Origin: a virus
Length of the DNA stretch: 54,341 bases
Virus record (IMG/VR): IMGVR_UViG_3300013126_001949
Location: 1 to 54,341 of that record
Strand: one strand, 5' to 3'
A program made the translations under genes and the position numbers. The notes under the pieces were generated by a model. That model was not told the origin of the DNA, searched no databases, and was given only the letters and a program-made list of their open reading frames with translations. Positions 16,650 through 50,208 of the stretch are shown in pieces (position 1 is the stretch's first letter; each line of letters opens with the position of its first letter).

Positions 16650-16945
16650 TGACCATAAGAATAGTTAATATTGGACAGGCTGATAAGGGTAACGGGGATC
16701 CAATTCGTACAGCATTTGATAAAATTAATAAGAACTTTCAAGACTTAGATAATATTGTAGAAGATTTAACCTTTAATGTTGCTGCCATAAATGGTGCTAA
16801 CAGTGTAAACGAGTTTGATTTTGGAAAAATACAGCTTAATAATATAACAAGCCCTTTACAATTATTATTTTTAACAAGTACTATAGACTTAGGCTATATT
16901 ACAGATCCTACTTTAATAGACTATGATGCAGGCAATATAGAGTAA
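16649..16945 (+). CDS. Small fibre-associated protein with the NGD/AF-K-N-NF adaptor motif
   Basis: The 98-residue product starts with VNIGQADKGNGDPIRTAFDK and INKNF. This is the same short motif that opens the giant fibre gene and two other genes in this cluster. The remainder (about 65 residues) has no recognised domain and ends acidic. The start ATG overlaps the stop of the giant fibre (TAATG), so it is almost certainly co-translated. It may attach to the same site as the larger fibres or act as a trimming subunit; that is inference. Confidence 0.7.
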   Translation: MTIRIVNIGQADKGNGDPIRTAFDKINKNFQDLDNIVEDLTFNVAAINGANSVNEFDFGKIQLNNITSPLQLLFLTSTIDLGYITDPTLIDYDAGNIE

Positions 16946-35545: not shown

Positions 35546-36388
35546 ATGAACTACTACGACATATTAGGCGTTAGCCGAGAAGCAACAGCACAAGATATAA
35601 AAACAGCCTATCGTAAATTGGCCATGGAACATCACCCAGATAGAGGTGGTGATGAAAGCCACTTCCAAAAAATTAGTCAAGCCTACGATACGTTAGGTGA
35701 CCCAAATAAACGTAATAGATACGACAGTGAAATCAATGTTAAACAAAACTTTAATGGAAACTTTAGAAGTTTTGAAGATATACACGACGTATTTAATGAT
35801 ATGTTTAGAGGACGGGCAGGGTTTGATTTTGGTCGTAGACATGTAAGAAATAAAAATTTAGATCTTAATATCAAGTGTAAGATTACTCTACTTGATAGTT
35901 TTATTGGCAAGGAAATTGAAGCTAGTTATGCTTTACCTTCTGGACGTAAGGAAACAGTGGTAATTAATATACCACCTGGAATTGAAAGTGGACATATACT
36001 AAAATTTAAAGGTATGGGTGATGACACATATCCTCAATTGGCTCGTGGGGATTTAAATGTTAGTATCTTGGTAGCAGAGGATTTAAATTTTACTAGAAGA
36101 AATAACGACATAACTACTATCATAGAAATTGATGCTATTGAAGCTATGATAGGATGTAATAAACCAGTGGAAACAATAGATGGTCGATTATTAAATATCA
36201 AAATTCGTCCAGGAATGACACACGGTGGTGAATATTCATCTAAAGGATTAGGATTCACAAATATTACTACTGGACAACAGGGAGATTTTGTAATTATAAT
36301 TTACATTAAAATTCCTACAATACACGATGAAAAGATAAAGAAAAAATTATTGGATATAAAAAATGAACTTAATAACCTTTCCAAATGA
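35546..36388 (+). CDS. DnaJ/CbpA-like J-domain co-chaperone
   Basis: The 280-residue protein has a complete J domain (YYDILGVSREATAQDIKTAY, HHPDRGG with His30-Pro31-Asp32), then a short Gly/Phe-containing linker, then two DnaJ C-terminal substrate-binding domains (LDLNIKCKITLLDSF, LPSGRKETVVINIPPGIESG, and so on). The Cys-rich zinc domain of classic DnaJ is missing, as in CbpA. It would stimulate host DnaK. No Shine-Dalgarno sequence is present, because a terminator hairpin ends one base before the ATG. Its end overlaps the deformylase gene by 26 bases. Confidence 0.9.
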   Translation: MNYYDILGVSREATAQDIKTAYRKLAMEHHPDRGGDESHFQKISQAYDTLGDPNKRNRYDSEINVKQNFNGNFRSFEDIHDVFNDMFRGRAGFDFGRRHVRNKNLDLNIKCKITLLDSFIGKEIEASYALPSGRKETVVINIPPGIESGHILKFKGMGDDTYPQLARGDLNVSILVAEDLNFTRRNNDITTIIEIDAIEAMIGCNKPVETIDGRLLNIKIRPGMTHGGEYSSKGLGFTNITTGQQGDFVIIIYIKIPTIHDEKIKKKLLDIKNELNNLSK

Positions 36389-39817: not shown

Positions 39818-40204
39818 ATGAAACTATTTGAAATGTTTGGGAATCGGGAAATGCCCATTGAGGACATGTTAAACACTGGTCCCAGTAAAATTATTAAAGA
39901 TGATCAAGGTAAGTACGAGTTTGATCTAGCAGAAGATCTTGTATTTTTCATGCATCATAATGATGACTTTTATCGTCGTCACTTTTTTCCTATATTAAAA
40001 ACCTGTAAAGCACAATATGAAAGTGGTGGAGAATTTAGCCACAGAGTATTTAAAAAAGTTATCGAAAAAGCCTACGATGAATATAAAAAAGAGTTTCCAG
40101 TAAGAGAACTAGATGATAATTTAGAAGAAGATTTTAAAGAGCAAGTAGCACATCATATTTACGAAACTGAAATACAAAATATTAAGGATGGTTTATATAA
40201 ATGA
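39818..40204 (+). CDS. Conserved small phage protein, late
   Basis: The 128-residue product starts MKLFEMFGNREMPIEDML, a hydrophobic/acidic peptide similar to those that open the following genes. The rest is acidic and helical (DLVFFMHHNDDFYRRHFFPI, then FKKVIEKAYDEYKKEF). I recall similar proteins in marine T4-like phages, without a function. The stop overlaps the next ATG (TAAATGA context), so it heads a late operon of six or more genes. Confidence 0.65.
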   Translation: MKLFEMFGNREMPIEDMLNTGPSKIIKDDQGKYEFDLAEDLVFFMHHNDDFYRRHFFPILKTCKAQYESGGEFSHRVFKKVIEKAYDEYKKEFPVRELDDNLEEDFKEQVAHHIYETEIQNIKDGLYK

Positions 40205-42081
40205 TCCTTCGTGAACTATTTGCTAGGCCACTTAAGGAAGGTGGTAATATTTGGGACGATGTTGAACCATTTGACCAAAGTCTAGCACCTAGGTTAGAAA
40301 CAGAATTAGAACGTTACCTACAGGGTACAGGCATCAAACTGTATCGTATAGGTAGTGGAGCAACACCTACACCAGGAGTTATGAGTGGTGATCTTGATGT
40401 TATGGCTGATGCAAATGTAGCTGCCAAAGTATTTCAACAACAAGATGCAAAGGGCGTTAGAGTAGAATTAGAAAGATTCCTACAAGGTAAAGGACTTGAT
40501 ACTAAAAAGAGTGGTACACAGGTCCATGTTAAATTACCATTTGGTCGTAGTTTTCATCAGGTAGATATAAAAGTTGTGCCCAATGCACAACAGGTACACA
40601 GATACCATGTTCATAGCATACCAAAAGATAGTCCTTATAAAGGTGTACACAAACAGATGGTTATGAATGCTCTCGCTAGCAGTCAAGGTATGTTATGGAG
40701 TCCAGATGAAGGTTTATTTGCTAGAGACGATAAAGGTAAAAAAGCTAACCTAATATCAACTGATATGGACGAGATAGCACAGAGATTATTGGGTCCAAGA
40801 GCAAGTAGTCAGGATTTAGGCAGTGTAGAAAGTATAATGAATGCATTACCTATAACGCAACGTGAAAAGATTTATAGCTTGGCTAGTAGTGGACAAAGTT
40901 GGAAAAGTGCGCCATTAAAAGGTCCAGAGAAGAAGTTCTTCGAAGCAGCAGCACCAACAATAGGTCGCAAGTATCAACATATTGAAGATCTAGTTTTTAC
41001 TAATGGTGCCAAGGGTGGTCTACATGCTGTAGAACGACTTCGTTATATGAGTACACAAGGTGGTAATATAGAACTTAAGTGGGATGGTAGCCCTGTAGTA
41101 TATTGGGGCAAACAGGATGGTGAGTTTATGATGATTCCTAAAAATGCTTGGGAATATCTTAAACGTGGCAAAACAGAATTACAAAATGGCATAAGCACCA
41201 TACCCCGCAGTGCAGAAGAAGTACAAAAGTTCCTAATGGGTACAGGTAAAGCTGATCCTGATCAAATAGCACAACGACGTCAATATGCCAAACAATTGGC
41301 CAGCCTTTGGCCCTTCTTTGAACAGGCCAGTCCAGATGATGGATTCCTAGAAGGTGGATTATTATTTTATCCAGGTACTAAACCAGATGGACAAAGTGCC
41401 AAACCAATACTTAATCCAAAAACGCAAGAGTATGAGTTCACTCCAAATATTACTACATTCCATATAGGAAAAAATAGTGATCTTGGTCGTAAGATTCGCA
41501 ATGCCAAAGTTATGGTGGCTGCTACAGGGTTCTATGAAAGTTTGGGCAGCAGCGATGAAGGACGTTATCCAGACCCAGAAAGCTTGAGCACCCCATATAC
41601 CATAGTGCAGGGTACAACGTATACTGAACAAACTCCACAATTTACAGAAAATAGTTTAGATAGTGTTCAATCATATATACAGGAAAATGCCAATCTAATC
41701 AATAACTTCCTAGCTCCTAAGCCTGGACTAAGTAAACCAGGTGATGTATTGTACAAATTTTATAATCAAAACCTACGTATTCCAGGAGTTAAACAAAAAT
41801 TTATTGATTGGGTCACTGCTAATACCAGTTCAAAACAAGCAGATATGATACTGAAAGATCGTGCTGGTATGGATGCTGTATTAACTGCTGTAGAATTACT
41901 AACTAGGGCTAAACTGGAAATGATTCAAAATTTAAGCAGTGGAACACATAATGGTATAAGACAGACCAAGCCAGAAGGATATGTTAGTGCTCATCCTGGT
42001 GTAGCATTTCAAAATGACTTACCTGGACAATTTGTCAAAGCAATTGACCAAGCTAATTGGGCTCCAAGGAAAGGCGAATGA
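40201..42081 (+). CDS. Double nucleotidyltransferase: pol beta-like domain plus ligase-like KxDG domain
   Basis: The 626-residue protein starts MILRELFARPLKEGG, a peptide shared with neighbours. Residues 47-125 show a pol beta-type nucleotidyltransferase signature: GSG at 51-53, Asp64 and Asp66 in GDLDV, and Asp122 in HQVDIKVV, so the catalytic acid triad is intact. Around residue 293 comes ELKWDGSPVVYWG, matching motif I (KxDG) of DNA and RNA ligases and capping enzymes, with DGFLEGGLLFYPG further on as a possible later motif. Related proteins exist in marine T4-like phages. The substrate of either domain is unknown. It overlaps both neighbours by 4 bases. Confidence 0.72.
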   Translation: MILRELFARPLKEGGNIWDDVEPFDQSLAPRLETELERYLQGTGIKLYRIGSGATPTPGVMSGDLDVMADANVAAKVFQQQDAKGVRVELERFLQGKGLDTKKSGTQVHVKLPFGRSFHQVDIKVVPNAQQVHRYHVHSIPKDSPYKGVHKQMVMNALASSQGMLWSPDEGLFARDDKGKKANLISTDMDEIAQRLLGPRASSQDLGSVESIMNALPITQREKIYSLASSGQSWKSAPLKGPEKKFFEAAAPTIGRKYQHIEDLVFTNGAKGGLHAVERLRYMSTQGGNIELKWDGSPVVYWGKQDGEFMMIPKNAWEYLKRGKTELQNGISTIPRSAEEVQKFLMGTGKADPDQIAQRRQYAKQLASLWPFFEQASPDDGFLEGGLLFYPGTKPDGQSAKPILNPKTQEYEFTPNITTFHIGKNSDLGRKIRNAKVMVAATGFYESLGSSDEGRYPDPESLSTPYTIVQGTTYTEQTPQFTENSLDSVQSYIQENANLINNFLAPKPGLSKPGDVLYKFYNQNLRIPGVKQKFIDWVTANTSSKQADMILKDRAGMDAVLTAVELLTRAKLEMIQNLSSGTHNGIRQTKPEGYVSAHPGVAFQNDLPGQFVKAIDQANWAPRKGE

Positions 42082-43439
42082 GGCTTAGACAATTATTTGA
42101 ACTTGATCGTACAGGAGAAGGATCAACTGCTGTGGTAGGTTGGGGCAGAGGTATGGGGCATAAGGGTCATATGATGTTGGCCAGTAGTGTTATAACCTAT
42201 GCTGACAAGATGGGCGGTGATCCATACTTTGTAGTGAGTAGAACTTATGGTCCAGATGATCCCTTACAACCTGAAGAAAAATTGGCCATATACAAAAAGG
42301 TATTCCCAGAACAAGGGCATATATTTCAAACTGCTACAGATGAACTACCTGATCTAACAAGAGTATTGACTAATCTTAATCAACAAGGTTATAATAATGT
42401 CACAGTGGTTGTTGGTGCTGATCAAAAACAGGCATTTCAATATCTTAAACAATATAACGGTAAACCTAATAAGGCAGGCGACATTCCATTCAAGTTTGAT
42501 AACTTGGATGTTATAGCCCGTCAAGAAACAGGTGACCCCAGTGCTGGTGAAGAAGGCCCACGTGCTACACCAATGCGTCAAGTATTGACAGATCCCACTA
42601 AGAGTGAACAAGAACAATTTGCAGTATGGCGTGATGCTATGAGTCCAGAAATAGATGATGATCAAGTTATGGATCTTATGCGTAAGGCCAAGGAGCGTAT
42701 GGGACAATTCGCTGCTGCTAAACCAAAAAAGAAGGCTAAAGAAATGAGACTATATGAATTAGAACAGCCCAGTGGTACACTATATATTATATTCAAACTA
42801 AACCCAAGAACTAATCTAATACAGGTTATAGGTGACTTTGCTACGTTCCCAGAAGAAGTAGTACAGCGTAGTCAAAATGTAGGCATTAGAGATAAGAAGG
42901 GCGGCAAAGGTCGTCCACTTAGAGTGAACTTTGAATTTACCGATGCCAGCAGTGCTCTTGGTGACTTAGAAGATGCTATACGTGATGTGGACTTTATTGG
43001 CGGTGAGGCTGCTGAACTTGTATTCCCTCTCAGTTCTCTACGCAGTGACTTTGGTCCAGAACTAAAAGAATTAAAAAGCCTTATAGGTAGTGGTGCTGAT
43101 GAACGTTTTAAACTGTATAAAGGTAAAGATGCTGGAGTAGAACCAGAAACTAAACCTAAAGGTGTAGATCATTTTATCGTTGGTCTAGATGGTAAACGAC
43201 GTCGTGCGCCCATACCTGGTAAACCAAATAGCCAAATGGGTGGTCATGCTGTGGCACAACCAGATGTATTTAGGTACAAATTATTGGCCACTGACCTAAT
43301 GCCTAAACTAAGAGATATGGGCTACAAGTTTGATAATGGTATGATTGTACTTAGAGCAGATCAACGTGATAAATTAAAAAATATGTTAGGTGATAAGTTT
43401 GGCCAGGTGTTTGGCTCTAAGGATATATTCAAGCAATGA
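42078..43439 (+). CDS. HxGH adenylyl/cytidylyltransferase-like protein with C-terminal extension
   Basis: From the ATG overlapping the upstream stop (ATGA), the product has 453 residues and starts MRLRQLFELDRTGEGS. Residues 18-170 look like a nucleotidylyltransferase: GWGRGMGHKGH supplies the HxGH motif (His28, His31), VVGADQKQAF the middle strand, and RATPMR (162-167) the xxATxMR motif seen in NMN and phosphopantetheine adenylyltransferases. At residue 223 a second MRLYELEQPSG begins, resembling the N-terminal peptides of this gene family, and the C-terminal 230 residues have no recognised fold. The gene could be a fusion, or it could contain an internal start at 42744. Confidence 0.72.
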   Translation: MRLRQLFELDRTGEGSTAVVGWGRGMGHKGHMMLASSVITYADKMGGDPYFVVSRTYGPDDPLQPEEKLAIYKKVFPEQGHIFQTATDELPDLTRVLTNLNQQGYNNVTVVVGADQKQAFQYLKQYNGKPNKAGDIPFKFDNLDVIARQETGDPSAGEEGPRATPMRQVLTDPTKSEQEQFAVWRDAMSPEIDDDQVMDLMRKAKERMGQFAAAKPKKKAKEMRLYELEQPSGTLYIIFKLNPRTNLIQVIGDFATFPEEVVQRSQNVGIRDKKGGKGRPLRVNFEFTDASSALGDLEDAIRDVDFIGGEAAELVFPLSSLRSDFGPELKELKSLIGSGADERFKLYKGKDAGVEPETKPKGVDHFIVGLDGKRRRAPIPGKPNSQMGGHAVAQPDVFRYKLLATDLMPKLRDMGYKFDNGMIVLRADQRDKLKNMLGDKFGQVFGSKDIFKQ

Positions 43440-43813
43440 AGATTAGAGAAATACTGGCCGAGCGTAAACAAGGTAAATTGACTAGACGTCAAAAAGAATC
43501 CACACGCGGTGTAAGCATTTATAGTGATGCAGAAAGAGCCAATAGCGACTACGTGGCTTTTAAGTTAGGACAGGCTATGGCCAGTACTGATGGAAAAAGT
43601 GTTCCTGACATAGATGCCAAAAGTTGGTTTGGTAAAAAGAAAACCATACATCCTTATACAGAAGTAGAACATGAAATGTTTGTTAAAGCCAGTAAAGCAG
43701 TAGGTGCCAAATACAAAGATTTAAACAAAGGTGACATGCGAAGTTTAGAACTTAAAAGCACTAATAAAGTAAGTCCTGTGGCAAAAATTAAACGTAATCA
43801 ATATGGAGTATAA
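43436..43813 (+). CDS. Small basic protein with capsid-targeting-like N-terminus
   Basis: The 125-residue product is strongly basic. It starts MKIREILAERKQGKLTRRQK and contains VPDIDAKSWFGKKKTIHPY, with no recognised domain. The first nine residues (MKIREILAE) fit the pattern of the surrounding genes and contain a Leu-Ala-Glu that would suit a T4 gp21-type prohead protease. It overlaps the previous gene by 4 bases (ATGA) and abuts the next. The basic composition suggests DNA or RNA association, which is inference. Confidence 0.65.
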   Translation: MKIREILAERKQGKLTRRQKESTRGVSIYSDAERANSDYVAFKLGQAMASTDGKSVPDIDAKSWFGKKKTIHPYTEVEHEMFVKASKAVGAKYKDLNKGDMRSLELKSTNKVSPVAKIKRNQYGV

Positions 43814-44020
43814 ATGAGACTAAGGGAACTATATGAAACAGCAAGCGGAGGAGCTACCAGTGCTGGTAATGTAGTTACCATAGCCAACCCACATATAACT
43901 AATAAAGGCGGAAAACCAAAATTAGTTAAAATAGAAACATTAAAAAATAAAAATGGAACAGCCAAAAATGCACTAGATAGTGATATTAGCTTATTTGGCG
44001 GAACAATATTAAAACGATAA
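43814..44020 (+). CDS. Small late protein with capsid-targeting-like N-terminus
   Basis: The 68-residue product starts MRLRELYETASGGATSAGN, the closest relative of the peptide opening the HxGH protein. The remainder is Lys/Asn/Gly-rich (KGGKPKLVKIETLKNKN) with no known domain. The ATG follows the previous stop directly. The stop overlaps the late promoter of the next unit. It is either a small internal virion protein or a remnant; the intact frame and spacing favour a real gene. Confidence 0.6.
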   Translation: MRLRELYETASGGATSAGNVVTIANPHITNKGGKPKLVKIETLKNKNGTAKNALDSDISLFGGTILKR

Positions 44021-44023
44021 ATA
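44016..44023 (+). promoter_or_regulatory. T4 late-type promoter octamer
   Basis: GATAAATA overlaps the stop of the previous gene and lies 20 bases before the next ATG, with a CGGAG ribosome site between. It starts the transcript for the large lysine-rich and Pro/Ala-rich proteins that follow. Confidence 0.7.
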
Positions 44024-44043
44024 TTACAAATTCGGAGTAACTT

Positions 44044-45255
44044 ATGGATCCTATTATGCAGGGCAGTTTGCCCGCCCCAGAGAATGAAGATGAAGGTAAA
44101 ATGGCCAAGGCTGACCTTTATAAAACTGCTAGATACGCATTAAAACTATTTAAAATGATGGATGATAATGCCCAACTAGAAGGGTGGATACAAGCTAAAA
44201 TTACTAAAGCCGCAGACTATATGGCTAGCGTATATCACTATTTAGAATATGAGATGAAGTTCAATGAATATGGACAAAAACTTGAAATGAGTGATATGTA
44301 CACTACTGAAGAAAAACGTATCCTTAGAAACAGACTAATGGAAGCCAAAGACAAAATGAAAGCCCTTAAAAAGGCCCAGGCTGAAAAGATGAAGAAAAAG
44401 GATGAAAAGGTAGATGAGGCCACTGGCTTTACTGCTAAAGATAAACGTAAGGGCAAAGTTGATACCAGTACTAGGAGTCAGTACAGTGTAAAACTTATGC
44501 ACAAAGATGGTAATAAATCTAAAAACGTACACTATGATGCAGATGAAGGTGAAAGCGAAGGCGAAGTAAGAGATCGTGCAGGTCGTGATCATAAGAGTCA
44601 AGGCTACAGCGTAGATAGCATACGTAAGAAAACTAGTGAAAATACTATGGCACAACCAAAGCCCACTAATAAACTATATCCTAAAGGTGGCGTAACTGGT
44701 AATGTTCCAAGTCCTCCAGATGGTGCTAGTGCTCCACCTCCAGGTAAAAATGTAAAAACTAGAGAAGGTCAGAAACTATCCAAAAAAGATTATGATGGTG
44801 ATGGCAAGAAAGAAAGTCCTAAAGATGAAGTTTGGGGCAGTCGTGCTAAGGCAGCAGCCAAATCAGGTAAGCCATTTGAAGAAGGCAAAAAGGCTAAACC
44901 AGACTTTTTAGATATGGACAAGGATGGTAATAAAAAAGAGCCAATGAAGAAGGCTGTAAAAGATAAAAAAGTTAGTGAATCAGCCAAGTGTAATCATACA
45001 GCCAAAGGTAAAAGTTGTCCAGTACACGGTATGAAAGAATGTAGTATGGAGGAAGCATTTAATCCGTTAAAGCACGTAAAGAATCCAACAAAGGGTGAAA
45101 AGGATGCTGCTAAAGATGTTAAGCGTGGCAGTTATAAAGATCGAGCAGCTCTGTTAAAGAGTGCTGAGCGAGATGGTCGTTTAAAAACAGAAGCACAAAA
45201 TGCTAAACAACAGGCCGCTATTGCCATTGCTAAAAAGAAGAAAGCAGCAGCATAA
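44044..45255 (+). CDS. Lysine-rich late protein with two DxDxDG loops and a Cys-His motif
   Basis: The 403-residue product has an N-terminal helical domain (DLYKTARYALKLFKMMDDNA, then WIQAKITKAADYMASVYHYL) and a long charged, flexible remainder. Two calcium-loop-like motifs, DYDGDG (residue 249) and DMDKDG (residue 290), are 41 residues apart. A CNH...SCPVHGMKEC motif from residue 316 could bind zinc. The end is very basic (KKKKAAA). Similar proteins occur in marine T4-like phages without assigned function. Its own late promoter and neighbours suggest a virion or prohead component. Confidence 0.65.
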   Translation: MDPIMQGSLPAPENEDEGKMAKADLYKTARYALKLFKMMDDNAQLEGWIQAKITKAADYMASVYHYLEYEMKFNEYGQKLEMSDMYTTEEKRILRNRLMEAKDKMKALKKAQAEKMKKKDEKVDEATGFTAKDKRKGKVDTSTRSQYSVKLMHKDGNKSKNVHYDADEGESEGEVRDRAGRDHKSQGYSVDSIRKKTSENTMAQPKPTNKLYPKGGVTGNVPSPPDGASAPPPGKNVKTREGQKLSKKDYDGDGKKESPKDEVWGSRAKAAAKSGKPFEEGKKAKPDFLDMDKDGNKKEPMKKAVKDKKVSESAKCNHTAKGKSCPVHGMKECSMEEAFNPLKHVKNPTKGEKDAAKDVKRGSYKDRAALLKSAERDGRLKTEAQNAKQQAAIAIAKKKKAAA

Positions 45256-47594
45256 TGACTATTAAAAACTTCATCCAACTAGTTGAGCAGGCTGACATTC
45301 CCAATATGCAAATGTTAGGGCAGTTGGGTGATGGCTTTGCTTATATACAATATAATGGTATGGCTGGCGTATTAGATCAACAAAGTAATAAAATGATCTT
45401 GATTAGTCAAAAAGTACCCGATGCTTATCAAATAGTCACTGTCGCTGGTGGTAGAGAAATGACTGAATATGTAGGTGCTGATCGAATTGGCCCTGCCACA
45501 CGGAAGGCACTGGATAGCATTATTCCAAGACAACGTCCACGACCACCTGCCCCTCTACCCGTACAAGAAACTTACGAAAGTAACGATCAGGTTCGTAGTA
45601 TTGTACAACGTATGATGGAGGATACTCGTGTTCCACAAAAGCCAAGACAGGGTCCACTACGTCCACAAACTGGAGCAGGTAAGCATAAGGACAAAAAGAA
45701 AGATCAAAAGCAGGGTAAAGAAAAACATAAAGGTAAAAACTTAGATGAAAATAGTATACCTTTTGCTGGTTTAGGTAAACACAAAATTGGACAGGCTGGA
45801 CAATTACGTAGTCCAGGACCAACAGGTTATCCCAAGGGCAAACTGGTAGGTGGCGCAGCAGAGAGTAGGTTTGGTCGTGATAGAGATGATCAATTTAGCC
45901 TCGGTGGTCGTATGCCACGCACTGATCGTATAGATAGAGACGGTCCAAATGATCAAGACTTTAGTAATAAAATGAAACAACAGACTATTAATCGTTTGTT
46001 AGACAAATATCCGAATCTAAAGCCTGCTAGTCTTAAAGGGAAATCATTACCAGAACTTATTCAAATGCTTAGAGAGGCTGTGAAAAAACCTAATGCTACT
46101 ACTCGTCATTTGAGAGACTATCCAGTAAGTGATAAGGATGTGGCTAAACCTGTTAAGCCTGAGAAGAAGAAGAAGGATGAAAAGAAAGCAGTGGTGGAAG
46201 TCACAGGCGACAAAAAGTTTGACGCTATGATGGGCAATATAAAGACATCTACCCCAGTTCCTGTGTCAGGATATGTAGCAGTGACTTATGCTAGCGAAAA
46301 TAATTCAAATAAAATCAAAGGTGTCACATACAATGGCAAGCCTATGCCAACTTCTATTGACGATCCTGAAGAATTGACTGGTCGAATAGAATTTACACCA
46401 GACCGCATCGAACAACATCTTATAGAAATTGGCCAAGACAATGGATGGGATAATATTGATCCCGGGCATGGAAGAGGTTTCTCGGAATTGTTTTTTGATA
46501 CCAACGCTAATTATACATCAAATACTCAGAGTCTTCTGGCAAAAAATATTGTTAATACAGTAAACCAAATCAACAATTTTTTCAATAACATGAACAATGA
46601 TTTACAATCTATTGGACTGCCAGGGTATAAGGTTGATGTATGGCAAGAGATATCATCATCAAATGGTCAAAAAATTGGAGATTTAAATCAAATCAAAAAA
46701 ATTGCTGTTAGTAAAATAATGCAGGCTCCCAATGATGCCGGAGAACAAATTGGTAAAGTAATCCTGCGTGAGTTGCCCAAATGGGAAGCAGATGATGAGC
46801 TTGGTTATGATCCTGAAGATTTTGCATGGGCCAGAAAGGTTGCTAAAATTTATATCACTAAAGGAGAGCGTGCTGGGCTGAAGGCACAGGCCCACACAAG
46901 GGCAAGAATGAGTCATGTAAGTGACATGATTGATCAATTACTTGGCGACGCCGGAGCAACTAAACTAAGAACTATAAAGGATTTAGATGAACAAGGTATG
47001 GAGGAAGGCTCTTCATATGAAACCGATAGTATGGTATCACATATTTCTCAAATAATTACGGACATATATCCACAGGGCGGTGATAAAAATACCTATATGA
47101 AACTTGTGGCCAGAAAGCTGCCACGTATTGTTAAAAACGATCCTAAATTATTTAGACGAGCATTTGGTATAGCCTATGATAGATTCTTTCATATAGACCA
47201 AGATGATGACGATGACTTTGACTATACAGATTATTCTATGCGTCAGGGTGAATTAGGCAATCCTGATAGAAGTGTAGGAGAAGCACATCCAAATAGCAAA
47301 ATATACGACAAATGCTGGAGTGGATATAAAAAGGTTCCAGGTAAAAAGCGCGGCGAAGCAGGTTCATGCAAAAAGATGGAAAGCATTAGTGAAGGTATAC
47401 TGGCCAGTTACGGACTGATGGAAAAAAGCCCACCTGGTTTTAAGGGCACGGTAAAGGCTATGAAAAAACATCCTGAACTAACCAAGGGTAAAACTAAGGA
47501 TGGTAAGGAAAAGAACCCATGGGCATTGGCCTGGCATATGAAAAACAAAGGCTATAAGAGTCATAAAAAGGCCGATGGATCAGATAAGGATTAA
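45255..47594 (+). CDS. Large late protein, lysine-rich, of unknown function
   Basis: The 779-residue product starts MTIKNFIQLVEQADIPNMQ. A beta-rich N-terminal domain (to about residue 100) is followed by a long Lys/Pro/Gly-rich linker, a folded central domain of about 270 residues (EFTPDRIEQHLIEIGQDNGW and so on), and a C-terminal part with CWSGYKKVPGKKRGEAGSC and KSPPGFKGTVKAMKKHPEL. These last two motifs recur in many marine phage structural proteins. The central domain uses more G/C-ending codons than the flanks by eye. The ATG overlaps the previous stop (TAATG). No enzymatic motif is recognised. Confidence 0.65.
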   Translation: MTIKNFIQLVEQADIPNMQMLGQLGDGFAYIQYNGMAGVLDQQSNKMILISQKVPDAYQIVTVAGGREMTEYVGADRIGPATRKALDSIIPRQRPRPPAPLPVQETYESNDQVRSIVQRMMEDTRVPQKPRQGPLRPQTGAGKHKDKKKDQKQGKEKHKGKNLDENSIPFAGLGKHKIGQAGQLRSPGPTGYPKGKLVGGAAESRFGRDRDDQFSLGGRMPRTDRIDRDGPNDQDFSNKMKQQTINRLLDKYPNLKPASLKGKSLPELIQMLREAVKKPNATTRHLRDYPVSDKDVAKPVKPEKKKKDEKKAVVEVTGDKKFDAMMGNIKTSTPVPVSGYVAVTYASENNSNKIKGVTYNGKPMPTSIDDPEELTGRIEFTPDRIEQHLIEIGQDNGWDNIDPGHGRGFSELFFDTNANYTSNTQSLLAKNIVNTVNQINNFFNNMNNDLQSIGLPGYKVDVWQEISSSNGQKIGDLNQIKKIAVSKIMQAPNDAGEQIGKVILRELPKWEADDELGYDPEDFAWARKVAKIYITKGERAGLKAQAHTRARMSHVSDMIDQLLGDAGATKLRTIKDLDEQGMEEGSSYETDSMVSHISQIITDIYPQGGDKNTYMKLVARKLPRIVKNDPKLFRRAFGIAYDRFFHIDQDDDDDFDYTDYSMRQGELGNPDRSVGEAHPNSKIYDKCWSGYKKVPGKKRGEAGSCKKMESISEGILASYGLMEKSPPGFKGTVKAMKKHPELTKGKTKDGKEKNPWALAWHMKNKGYKSHKKADGSDKD

Positions 47595-47597
47595 AAT

Positions 47598-48551
47598 ATG
47601 AGTATGAAAAATCTAATAGCACAGATGGATGCTATTGAACAAGGTAAAAAGTTTATAGCTGAATCAGCAGCTACAGTGGTTGAATACAAAGGCGGTACTG
47701 ATCAGGAAAAAATCAAAAACTGGCAAGATCATATTAAAAACTTTGATAATTTTCCCAAGGCACAGGATGATGCTAGACAGGCTGCTAAAAAGGCACAACC
47801 AGGTGCTAAGTTTTATAAGACTGATGACAAGCCTAAAAAAGAAGGTATGGGCAGTATAGCCCGTGCTCTAATGCAGGATATGGGTATTGAGGAAGAAGGC
47901 AATTATCCTTTAGACCAACAACAATATGTACAACGTGGTGATGTTCCAGCAGGTCCTGGTATGAGTGATCCAATGGCTGCACTAAAACACGCTTGGAAAT
48001 ATAGAACAGATCCTCAAGGAAATTTGATTGGTAGCAGAGCTAAGGCTCAATTAGATAATCCTGATCCTGCTACAAGCGGTGACGCTAATATAGGAGGAGC
48101 AGCTAATGCAGGAGCAGCACCAGCAGCCGCAGAACCAGATGTAGGTACTCCAGAATTAAACATTGGTCAAGGTGCAACTCCAGCACCAGCACCAACACCA
48201 GCAGTTACTAATCCTGCAACAGACCCAAATACTAATCCTGGTAAACCTACAACTGGTAGTGAAATGGACACTCCTGCTCCTGCAGGAATTACTCCAGCTA
48301 GTAGTGGTGCAGCAAGTGCTCAACCACCTAATAGAGATACTATGCCATTTGGTAAAGCGTTTGCTGATGCAAAGGCCAAAGGTGAAAAAGTGTTTACATG
48401 GAAAGGTAAGCAGTATGCTGTAAAAATGGCAAATGCACCAAAATCAGGAAGTCCAGCAGCGGCACCAGCGGCACCAGTCGCTGCTCCTCTTACACAAGGT
48501 CCAGTGGAGTCGGTAGACTTATCTATGATTAGAAAACTAGCTGGACTATAA
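47598..48551 (+). CDS. Pro/Ala-rich late protein with a KGEKVFTWKGKQY motif
   Basis: The 317-residue product starts MSMKNLIAQMDAIEQGKKF and has a helical, Lys-rich first third, then about 150 residues of Ala, Pro, Thr, Gly and Asn (a probable disordered linker). Near the end is FGKAFADAKAKGEKVFTWKG, a short module (A-F-x-x-A-x-x-x-G-x-x-x-F-x-W-x-G-K-x-Y) that I recall from other marine phage virion proteins. It ends with LSMIRKLAGL. It lies 3 bases after the previous gene on the same late transcript. Confidence 0.62.
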   Translation: MSMKNLIAQMDAIEQGKKFIAESAATVVEYKGGTDQEKIKNWQDHIKNFDNFPKAQDDARQAAKKAQPGAKFYKTDDKPKKEGMGSIARALMQDMGIEEEGNYPLDQQQYVQRGDVPAGPGMSDPMAALKHAWKYRTDPQGNLIGSRAKAQLDNPDPATSGDANIGGAANAGAAPAAAEPDVGTPELNIGQGATPAPAPTPAVTNPATDPNTNPGKPTTGSEMDTPAPAGITPASSGAASAQPPNRDTMPFGKAFADAKAKGEKVFTWKGKQYAVKMANAPKSGSPAAAPAAPVAAPLTQGPVESVDLSMIRKLAGL

Positions 48552-48561
48552 GAGAATACAA

Positions 48562-50208
48562 ATGAGTACAGAACTTTTAAGAAGATATTTAGATATCATA
48601 TCAGAAGAAACTGATGATATGCGAGCAGGTATACCTCCAGAACCTGCTAGCTCTCCAACAACAACTACTCCTGCCCCTACAGCAGGTGGTCCATTAAAAG
48701 TTCCTAAACAAAATCCTAGTACTGAATGGTTAGATATACAAAAAGTAATACAGGCCCTATATCCAGATGCACTTCCTGAATATGGAGCAGATGGGTATAA
48801 TGGTCCAGAAACTAAGGCTGCTGTAGAAAAGTTTCAAACAGATAATAAATTAAATGTAGATGGATTAGTAGGTAATCAAACAATAACTGCCCTAAATCAA
48901 GCTATAGCAGATAAAAAGATACCATTCAAACCTAGCTCACCTACTGAAATTGCTGCTCCTAATCAACAACCTGGTGATTGGAAGAAGGGTAAAACAACTC
49001 CAACTACAACTCCACCAAAACAGGAACCGGCTCAGCAACCATCAACTGCACCATCAACTGCTCCTAATCAAACTGCTAAAGAACCAAATCCAGCCGAAGT
49101 GCAGAAGGCTAAGCAAACTGCGGATCAAGTCATTGGTAATATATTAAACACCCCACAGGTTAAAGAAAGTGCGGCTCAGCAATATAGAAGACTGGCAAAT
49201 ATACTACAAGAACTTACCACAGCTAATCATCCTGTAGGAACTATGGTTAAACATTCTAATGGTTTAGATTATCAGTGGAACGGAACTGAATGGCGTAGTG
49301 TACATCCTACAGACCCTGCATTAAATAATCGAAGAGCTCCACCTAGAATTATAAATGATTTAAACACTTTGGCTACTAACTCGACTCCCGCTCCTACGGC
49401 TAGTGCCAATACTACACCTAACACATCAACTGCACCTTCTAAAAAAACAAAAATGATGGGCTGGGAACCTACTCTAGGCAGACCACCTGAAGCAGGTGAA
49501 GTATTTAAGATTCCAAATAATCAACCAAAAAAATACGGAATATTTAGAGGAAAAGATGCATTAACTTGGGATGTGGGCCAAGCTAGATTTACCAGTACTG
49601 ATCCAGAATTAGACAAATTGCTTAGAAGAACAGAATATCAACAAAATTATCAAAAAGCATTTGCTGATTTTAGACAAGGTGGACGGCTTACTGATAAAAT
49701 AGTTAAAGGTGGCGATGCTGCTAGAGATATATCTAGAGCAGCAGATAAAGCTAAACCTTTATTGGGTAAAGGTATAAATGTAGGATTAAGAGCCGTAGAT
49801 TTAGGGTATAGTATTGACAGTGCAATAGATAATTCAAAGTTAGCCAGTAAAAACTTTGGTGCAGGTAATACTTGGACTGGTTGGGCATATAGTGCTGCTG
49901 CTCTAGCTAATGCAGCATCGGCTATTGCAGCCATTCATCCTGCTACTAAATTCACTGCTGGTGTTGGTATAGCAGTAGGAGCAGCTGGTTTGGAATTATT
50001 GGCTAATTGGTTCGAGGAGAAGGCCAATGAAATAGCACAAAAACCAGATATGAGTTATGCAGAGAAAGTTCAACTAAAACGTGAATATCAGGCTAAAATT
50101 GATGCATTGGAAAAGGCACTATCACAGCAGGACTGGAGTGCCGAAGATAAACAAAAATTTTTAGCAGCCATAAACAAACTTAAACAAGATATAGCGCAAT
50201 TACAATAA
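48562..50208 (+). CDS. Peptidoglycan-binding-domain virion protein with hydrophobic C-terminal region
   Basis: The 548-residue product starts MSTELLRRYLDIISEETDD. Residues 55-115 form a peptidoglycan-binding domain of the PG_binding_1 type (WLDIQKVIQALYPD, GYNGPETKAAVEKFQ, VDGLVGNQTITALN). Pro/Thr/Gln-rich linkers surround it. From about residue 434 a Gly/Ala-rich hydrophobic stretch (AAALANAASAIAAI and GVGIAVGAAGLELL) could insert in membranes, and the tail is a charged coiled coil. This layout suits a protein ejected with the DNA that helps cross the host envelope. No lytic catalytic residues are visible. Confidence 0.68.
   Translation: MSTELLRRYLDIISEETDDMRAGIPPEPASSPTTTTPAPTAGGPLKVPKQNPSTEWLDIQKVIQALYPDALPEYGADGYNGPETKAAVEKFQTDNKLNVDGLVGNQTITALNQAIADKKIPFKPSSPTEIAAPNQQPGDWKKGKTTPTTTPPKQEPAQQPSTAPSTAPNQTAKEPNPAEVQKAKQTADQVIGNILNTPQVKESAAQQYRRLANILQELTTANHPVGTMVKHSNGLDYQWNGTEWRSVHPTDPALNNRRAPPRIINDLNTLATNSTPAPTASANTTPNTSTAPSKKTKMMGWEPTLGRPPEAGEVFKIPNNQPKKYGIFRGKDALTWDVGQARFTSTDPELDKLLRRTEYQQNYQKAFADFRQGGRLTDKIVKGGDAARDISRAADKAKPLLGKGINVGLRAVDLGYSIDSAIDNSKLASKNFGAGNTWTGWAYSAAALANAASAIAAIHPATKFTAGVGIAVGAAGLELLANWFEEKANEIAQKPDMSYAEKVQLKREYQAKIDALEKALSQQDWSAEDKQKFLAAINKLKQDIAQLQ

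Follow-up and report, generated by a model that had tools for sequence, protein, structure and literature searches.

Our results suggest that the genes between positions 39818 and 50208 of a T4-like myovirus contig constitute a cargo module of a jumbo phage, in which tagged enzymes would be packaged into the head, cut, and ejected. We assign this reading a probability of roughly 85% on the basis of sequence patterns and of analogy to T4. The window, as the term is used here, is the entire virus contig of 54,341 bases. An earlier note on this DNA had proposed capsid targeting of the T4 type, and at the level of sequence this proposal is supported by the pattern of the sites, a protease gene in a near-identical relative, a match to the predicted maturation site of gp23, and tagged homologs in virions.

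We propose that proteins that are otherwise unrelated (a polymerase-beta-type nucleotidyltransferase, DUF6267, a cytidylyl/NMN-adenylyltransferase, and a peptidoglycan binder) carry an N-terminal capsid-targeting propeptide, with DUF6267 as a putative KxDG (ligase-like) partner enzyme. As in T4, the propeptide would dock the protein into the prohead core, and a gp21-type protease would cut after (I/L)-x-Glu, a pattern that is observed at these sites, so that the mature enzyme would be freed inside the head. The 626-aa fusion protein, whose linker contains a further site in addition to the single tag, would be separated in the prohead, and the 68-aa gene would contribute a tagged copy of the N-terminal arm of the capsid protein itself. 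The enzymes would enter the host together with the DNA, as inferred from T4 Alt and IPI, and could then modulate NAD or modify host molecules by nucleotidylation at an early stage of infection. This reading turns unannotated genes into predicted packaged enzymes.

Genome context of the block

Apart from the block, the window harbors genes for a gp43-type DNA polymerase (50808, named from the sequence, read directly), a clamp loader (28180), a ClpA-like ATPase (36865), and a protein with a baseplate wedge/tail-fiber connector domain (22444). A single copy of the T4 late-promoter core TATAAATA is found in the window (23627) against 11 expected occurrences, which is uninformative for the block. 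The features of the block are as follows, with a slash marking the predicted cleavage position here and below.

39818 to 40204, + strand, 128-aa protein with the start MKLFEMFGN; tag-like peptide at 39818 to 39838
40201 to 42081, + strand, 626-aa two-domain protein, nucleotidyltransferase plus DUF6267
40201 to 40239, + strand, propeptide MILRELFARPLKE, capsid-targeting-like; E13/GGN as the predicted cut
40936 to 40944, + strand, predicted internal maturation site FFE248/AAAP in the interdomain linker
42078 to 43439, + strand, 453-aa cytidylyl/NMN-adenylyl-type transferase; tag MRLRQLFE at 42078 to 42101
43436 to 43813, + strand, 125-aa basic protein; tag MKIREILAE at 43436 to 43462
43814 to 44020, + strand, 68-aa protein; tag MRLRELYE (43814 to 43837), then TASGGATSAGNVVTI (43838 to 43882)
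44044 to 45255, + strand, 403-aa protein with the start MDPIMQ; untagged, and absent from the genes listed in the earlier note
45255 to 47594, + strand, 779-aa protein; tag MTIKNFIQLVE at 45255 to 45287
47598 to 48551, + strand, 317-aa Ala/Pro-rich protein with the start MSMKNLIAQMDAIEQGKKFIAE
48562 to 50208, + strand, 548-aa protein with the start MSTELLRRYLDIISE (48562 to 48606); weak tag match

The same block is present in a 399,796-base record, in which the 626-aa protein is identical. This near-identical relative (the 400-kb relative) was taken whole as the genome background for counts. It encodes a prohead protease of the gp21 family (PF03420, E = 3.5e-26), which the window fragment does not contain, and its head module is in T4 order, with counterparts of gp20, gp22, and gp23 present.

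87259, portal-like protein (named from sequence and order)
88994, small tag-like protein
91575, prohead protease (PF03420)
92218, scaffold-like protein (named from sequence and order)
93329, gp23-type capsid protein (named from sequence and order)

A shared N-terminal peptide beyond chance

The starts and opening peptides described earlier for eight genes were all verified. The description of a short amphipathic peptide followed by (I/L)-x-Glu holds for seven of the nine block genes, but is weak for 39818 and 48562 and does not apply to 44044. The pattern (L/I)-x-E ending at residues 5 to 15 was found in 7/9 block genes, compared with 7/49 of the other genes in the window (P = 3e-4) and 79/463 genes in the 400-kb relative (P = 1.4e-4).

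Because the earlier note had been made with the block sequences in view, we trained a position matrix outside the window, using solely the N-termini of DUF6267 proteins that other phages encode as a free-standing gene; the window has no such separate gene. When the window and the relative were searched with this out-of-sample profile, block genes came out on top, with ranks 1, 2, 3, 4, 5, 7, and 8 of 58 in the window (area under the curve [AUC] 0.83, P = 0.001) and ranks 1, 2, 4, and 7 of 472 in the 400-kb relative. This matrix and the site statistics were used because a leave-one-out matrix of the first 8 residues proved too strict for tags of unequal length and was dropped. Searches with regular expressions alone have a background of about 1.2%, and a peptide deformylase at 36363 was a false positive among their hits; the same patterns recovered the T4 controls IPII, IPIII, Alt, and gp24.

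Individual members vary. The protein at 39818 has no convincing (I/L)xE cleavage site in its own clade, and its counterparts in other clades begin with MRIRELLE/G. The gene at 48562 ranks poorly with the matrix (44 of 58), although ISE15 is nonetheless present. Orthologs of 43436 display the sites ITE, LLE, ISE, and IAE, and 47598 has a long amphipathic start with IAE22/SAA (47598 to 47663).

The tags are enriched at 39818 to 50208, but they are not confined to it: about eight further genes outside the block in the 400-kb relative bear tags, the candidates including 387024 (lysozyme domain), 387842, 388081, 319931, 264939, 81624, and 88994. Candidates are most closely packed in the block, but the set extends past it.

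Conservation of the predicted cleavage site among relatives

We compared 80 loci across relatives, in which the nucleotidyltransferase and DUF6267 are fused in 26 and encoded by separate genes in 53. Wherever DUF6267 is a separate gene among these relatives, it has a tag of its own, such as MKIRELIIE/AAA, MRAREFILRE/AAP, MRLRQLFE/APP, or MLLNELFSNLKE/AAP. Among its distinct N-termini, P3 is Leu or Ile in 26/26, P1 is Glu in 26/26, and P1' is Ala in 23/26, while P2 is free. The nucleotidyltransferase displays (L/I)-x-E/GGN in 34/34 distinct N-termini, after a stretch of 5 to about 20 residues; as the sequences are related, the counts of 26/26 and 34/34 do not represent independent events. Two observations count against the cargo reading. 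In the split lineages the nucleotidyltransferase retains just a 5-residue MxLxE, which is short for targeting, and the cyanophage DUF6267 proteins that were examined carry no tag.

The (I/L)-x-E pattern with a Glu-Ala junction is the established specificity of T4 gp21. The T4 tag is cut between Glu and Ala, and roles have been described for its residues 4, 7, 8, and 10 (PMC9026906). The block resembles T4 IPI to IPIII and Alt in that a short amphipathic propeptide ends in (I/L)-x-E, a protease of the gp21 family is available, and unrelated cargo stands behind a common tag. It differs from the T4 internal proteins in its cargo, which comprises nucleotidyl- and cytidylyltransferases and two enzymes joined in one protein whose internal site is conserved, and in the tag itself, the commonest forms in the jumbo group being MRLRELFE or MKIRELLSE, in contrast to MKTYQEFIAE in T4. 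The Salmonella giant phage SPN3US, a phiKZ-like phage of a lineage other than the T4-like phages, also resembles what is proposed for the block, in that many of its head proteins are cleaved by a prohead protease and ejected.

Two other origins of the peptides can be weighed against these data. They might constitute a helix that sorts or docks the proteins to a target other than the head (for instance a chaperone, a membrane, or a replication compartment), with the Glu site incidental; amphipathic helices have many roles, and candidate tags are also found on genes distant from the head module. We regard this as improbable, since an invariant (L/I)-x-E/A with a free P2 and a variable spacer is the signature of a protease, virion-detected homologs are tagged, and 43814 reproduces the gp23 maturation site. 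Still more improbable, to the point of being nearly negligible, is that a single ancestral start was duplicated before neighboring genes and has persisted through drift or through a role in translation initiation. Neighboring tags are indeed alike (MRLRQLFE and MRLRELYE), and in relatives an identical string shifts from one family to another. However, the codons of the tags differ from gene to gene in the block, so that the likeness lies at the protein level, both the length and the type of the tags vary, and P1 and P3 are more constrained than P2 across orthologs. A shared origin would in any case be compatible with a targeting function.

Proposed cargo proteins and the 626-aa fusion

The earlier statement that the cargo is otherwise unrelated, with two types of nucleotidyltransferase and a peptidoglycan binder, is borne out by folds, motifs, and Pfam and phrog matches. 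The protein at 42078 matches phrog_3041 (E = 6e-22) and has the HxGH motif as HKGH at residue 28, and the protein at 48562 contains a PG_binding_1 domain at residues 55 to 111 (Pfam, E = 3e-12). The nucleotidyltransferase domain of the 626-aa protein has a DNA-polymerase-beta/lambda fold (Foldseek matches to polymerases lambda and beta, E about 1e-6), with the GS...DxD motif as GSG..DLD at residues 51 to 69. Its DUF6267 domain (PF19782; Pfam E = 4e-14, 53.1 bits versus a gathering score of 27) has the KxDG motif as KWDG at residue 293, and no ligase was found among the best 50 fold matches listed.

In the AlphaFold2 model, a low-confidence linker (residues 248 to 258, pLDDT < 50) begins exactly at the FFE248 site. 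Hydrophobic-x-E/A is kept in the linker of all fused forms, as FFE248/A in the window and as LQE, INE, VNE, or LLE elsewhere. Because the protein has one N-terminal tag and a second site in the linker, the fusion of nucleotidyltransferase and DUF6267 is probably a polyprotein that is separated in the prohead, as judged from the sequence and the model.

It is conceivable, though we consider it unlikely, that the proteins of the block are internal structural or scaffold-like components, which would be cut and would stay in the head rather than form an ejected kit. N-termini of this kind are also seen in T4 gp24, gp22, and gp21, the proteins of 47598 and 45255 are of low complexity, and 43814 mimics the capsid protein. 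On the other hand, three members have recognizable enzyme folds or motifs, and ejection has precedents in T4 Alt, IPI, and IPIII (PMC9026906 and PMC9391042).

Tagged homologs in cyanophage virions

Virion proteomics of cyanophages bears on the reading of the block as packaged cargo. Cytidylyl/NMN-adenylyltransferases were detected by mass spectrometry in virions of S-CREM2, S-SCSM1, S-CBWM1, and S-SZBM1, and the authors allow contamination of virion proteins as a possibility (PMC10665884 and PMC9602691). The virion homologs of the 42078 type begin with MKNFSSFLTE/ADEK in S-CREM2 (ORF154) and MKSFLQFLKE/AAES in S-SCSM1 (ORF91), close to T4 IPIII, MKTYQEFIAE/A, and starts of the same type are found in S-SM2 and DSL-LC02. 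These homologous HxGH transferases lie in a block of virion proteins and have a tag ending in FLxE, in likeness to the arrangement predicted for the window; most genes around ORF91 are annotated as virion proteins. The untagged 44044 protein and S-SCSM1 ORF92, a virion protein by mass spectrometry, have the stretch KPDFLDMDKDGNKKEPMKKA in common. Most of the neighboring genes in cyanomyoviruses have no homologs in the window.

Other virion proteins of S-CREM2 carry tags as well, among them a SAM hydrolase (MKDFDSFLEE), a kinase (VKRFDAFLTE), and ORF13 (MKDLHSFLTE). In the Cas9-like protein, RFASFMAE stands at a more internal position, and ORF156, also a virion protein, is a second nucleotidyltransferase. 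Neighboring S-CREM2 genes whose products were undetected in virions had no tags. Over the part of the genome that was covered, patterns fixed beforehand gave 3/26 virion proteins versus 1/61 others, a weak enrichment (P = 0.08), and a relaxed pattern gave P = 0.03. Loading by a tag, which the sections of the cyanophage papers drawn on here do not propose in describing virion NMNAT/cytidylyltransferases, would provide a mechanism for the recurrence of these enzymes in cyanophage virion proteomes. This raises the possibility that the tags form an address code by which cargo genes could be recognized in the genomes of large phages.

A small protein resembling the capsid arm

The 68-aa protein encoded at 43814, MRLRELYE/TASGGATSAGNV, serves as an internal positive control, since past its Glu it continues exactly like gp23 of the relative, which reads NTRKYLAE/TASAGTTSAGNV around the cut predicted for its maturation. 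The protein of the jumbo phage scored 57 against its own gp23 and 51 against the next protein, and one null shuffle reached 59. This small margin is strengthened by the profile result: when the proteins of five phages were searched with the profile of the 43814 family, the sole hits outside the family that passed the inclusion threshold were the gp23 proteins of two relatives (E = 1.6e-5 and 4.6e-5), with the alignment at E41 of gp23.

Corresponding matches were found in other phages. In S-SCSM1, the virion protein ORF97 scored 83 against its own gp23 (next protein, 42) and slightly higher, 88, against that of S-CREM2; in S-CREM2, the virion protein ORF160 scored 95 against its own gp23. P-HM1 ORF169 scored 111 (next of 19 neighbors, 36), and no mimic was found in HTVC008M. 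The arm sequences vary between phages, and each mimic tracks its own gp23, except for S-SCSM1 ORF97.

In T4, gp61.1 aligns without gaps to gp23 residues 56 to 93, with a score of 82 compared with 50 for the next T4 protein, and the Glu at which gp23 is cut falls opposite E10 of gp61.1. Like the 43814 protein, gp61.1 is small and tagged and repeats the gp23 arm right after the maturation Glu; the arm sequences differ, each corresponding to its own gp23, and the gene lies beside gene 61 in T4, whereas here it lies in the cargo block. A relationship at the level of the HMM was not reached (E = 1), and we link gp61.1 to 43814 because each protein matches its own gp23.

From this pattern, which was noticed after the fact, we put forward with evenly divided confidence that T4-like phages have a small head protein devoted to mimicry of the arm of their own gp23 just downstream of the maturation cut, that this design has been kept from T4 through cyanophages to the jumbo group, and that the protein serves the internal cargo as a capsid-lattice anchor or as an assembly regulator. 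A search of the available literature turned up no paper on the function of gp61.1. Through the mimicry, gene 61.1 of T4, which has received little study, would be tied to head assembly, a link that is directly testable in T4; relatives of gp61.1 are found in 1,381 phage records.

Capsid-arm mimics and further tagged proteins

Judged by sequence, the N-terminal arm of the major capsid protein gp23, directly past the maturation Glu, appears to be copied by small proteins of the same phage in T4, three cyanophages and the jumbo group:
window 43814-44020, jumbo group
L117:18966-19130, T4 gene 61.1
L121:15122-15307, cyanophage
L120:23343-24236, cyanophage
L104:20600-21304, cyanophage
In the public record of Klebsiella phage Miro (KT001919), a gp61.1-like gene at 16675-16764 bears the label "major capsid protein"; its gp23-like stretch is the probable reason.

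In records L030 and L041, the tag MNLNELFITE/D (slash, predicted cut) stands on another HxGH-type transferase, and a longer reading frame contains an internal gp23-arm-like stretch, LKE/SATAGATSSGNIAT, hinting at additional prohead polyproteins. In the 400-kb relative, three genes at L103 form a second tagged series. At L088 in that genome, an 80-aa protein opens with MILRELF, nearly identical to the tag of the 626-aa enzyme, and the homologue of this small protein in G004 opens with MFLREF. The four loci are:
L103:7024-7845, tagged, PG-binding plus phage lysozyme
L103:7842-8084, tagged, 80-aa protein
L103:8081-8377, tagged, DUF6321
L088:8994-9236, 80-aa protein (MILRELF), directly after the portal gene

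Other sequence motifs

Across the whole window, the T4 late-promoter core TATAAATA occurs once (23627), versus about 11 occurrences expected by chance. Several proteins share a second short motif, L-x-x-L-(R/K)-K-L-A-G-(I/L):
L005:12588-12818, start of small gene, relative
L013:8702-8941, start of small gene, relative
window 47598-48551, C-terminus of the encoded protein
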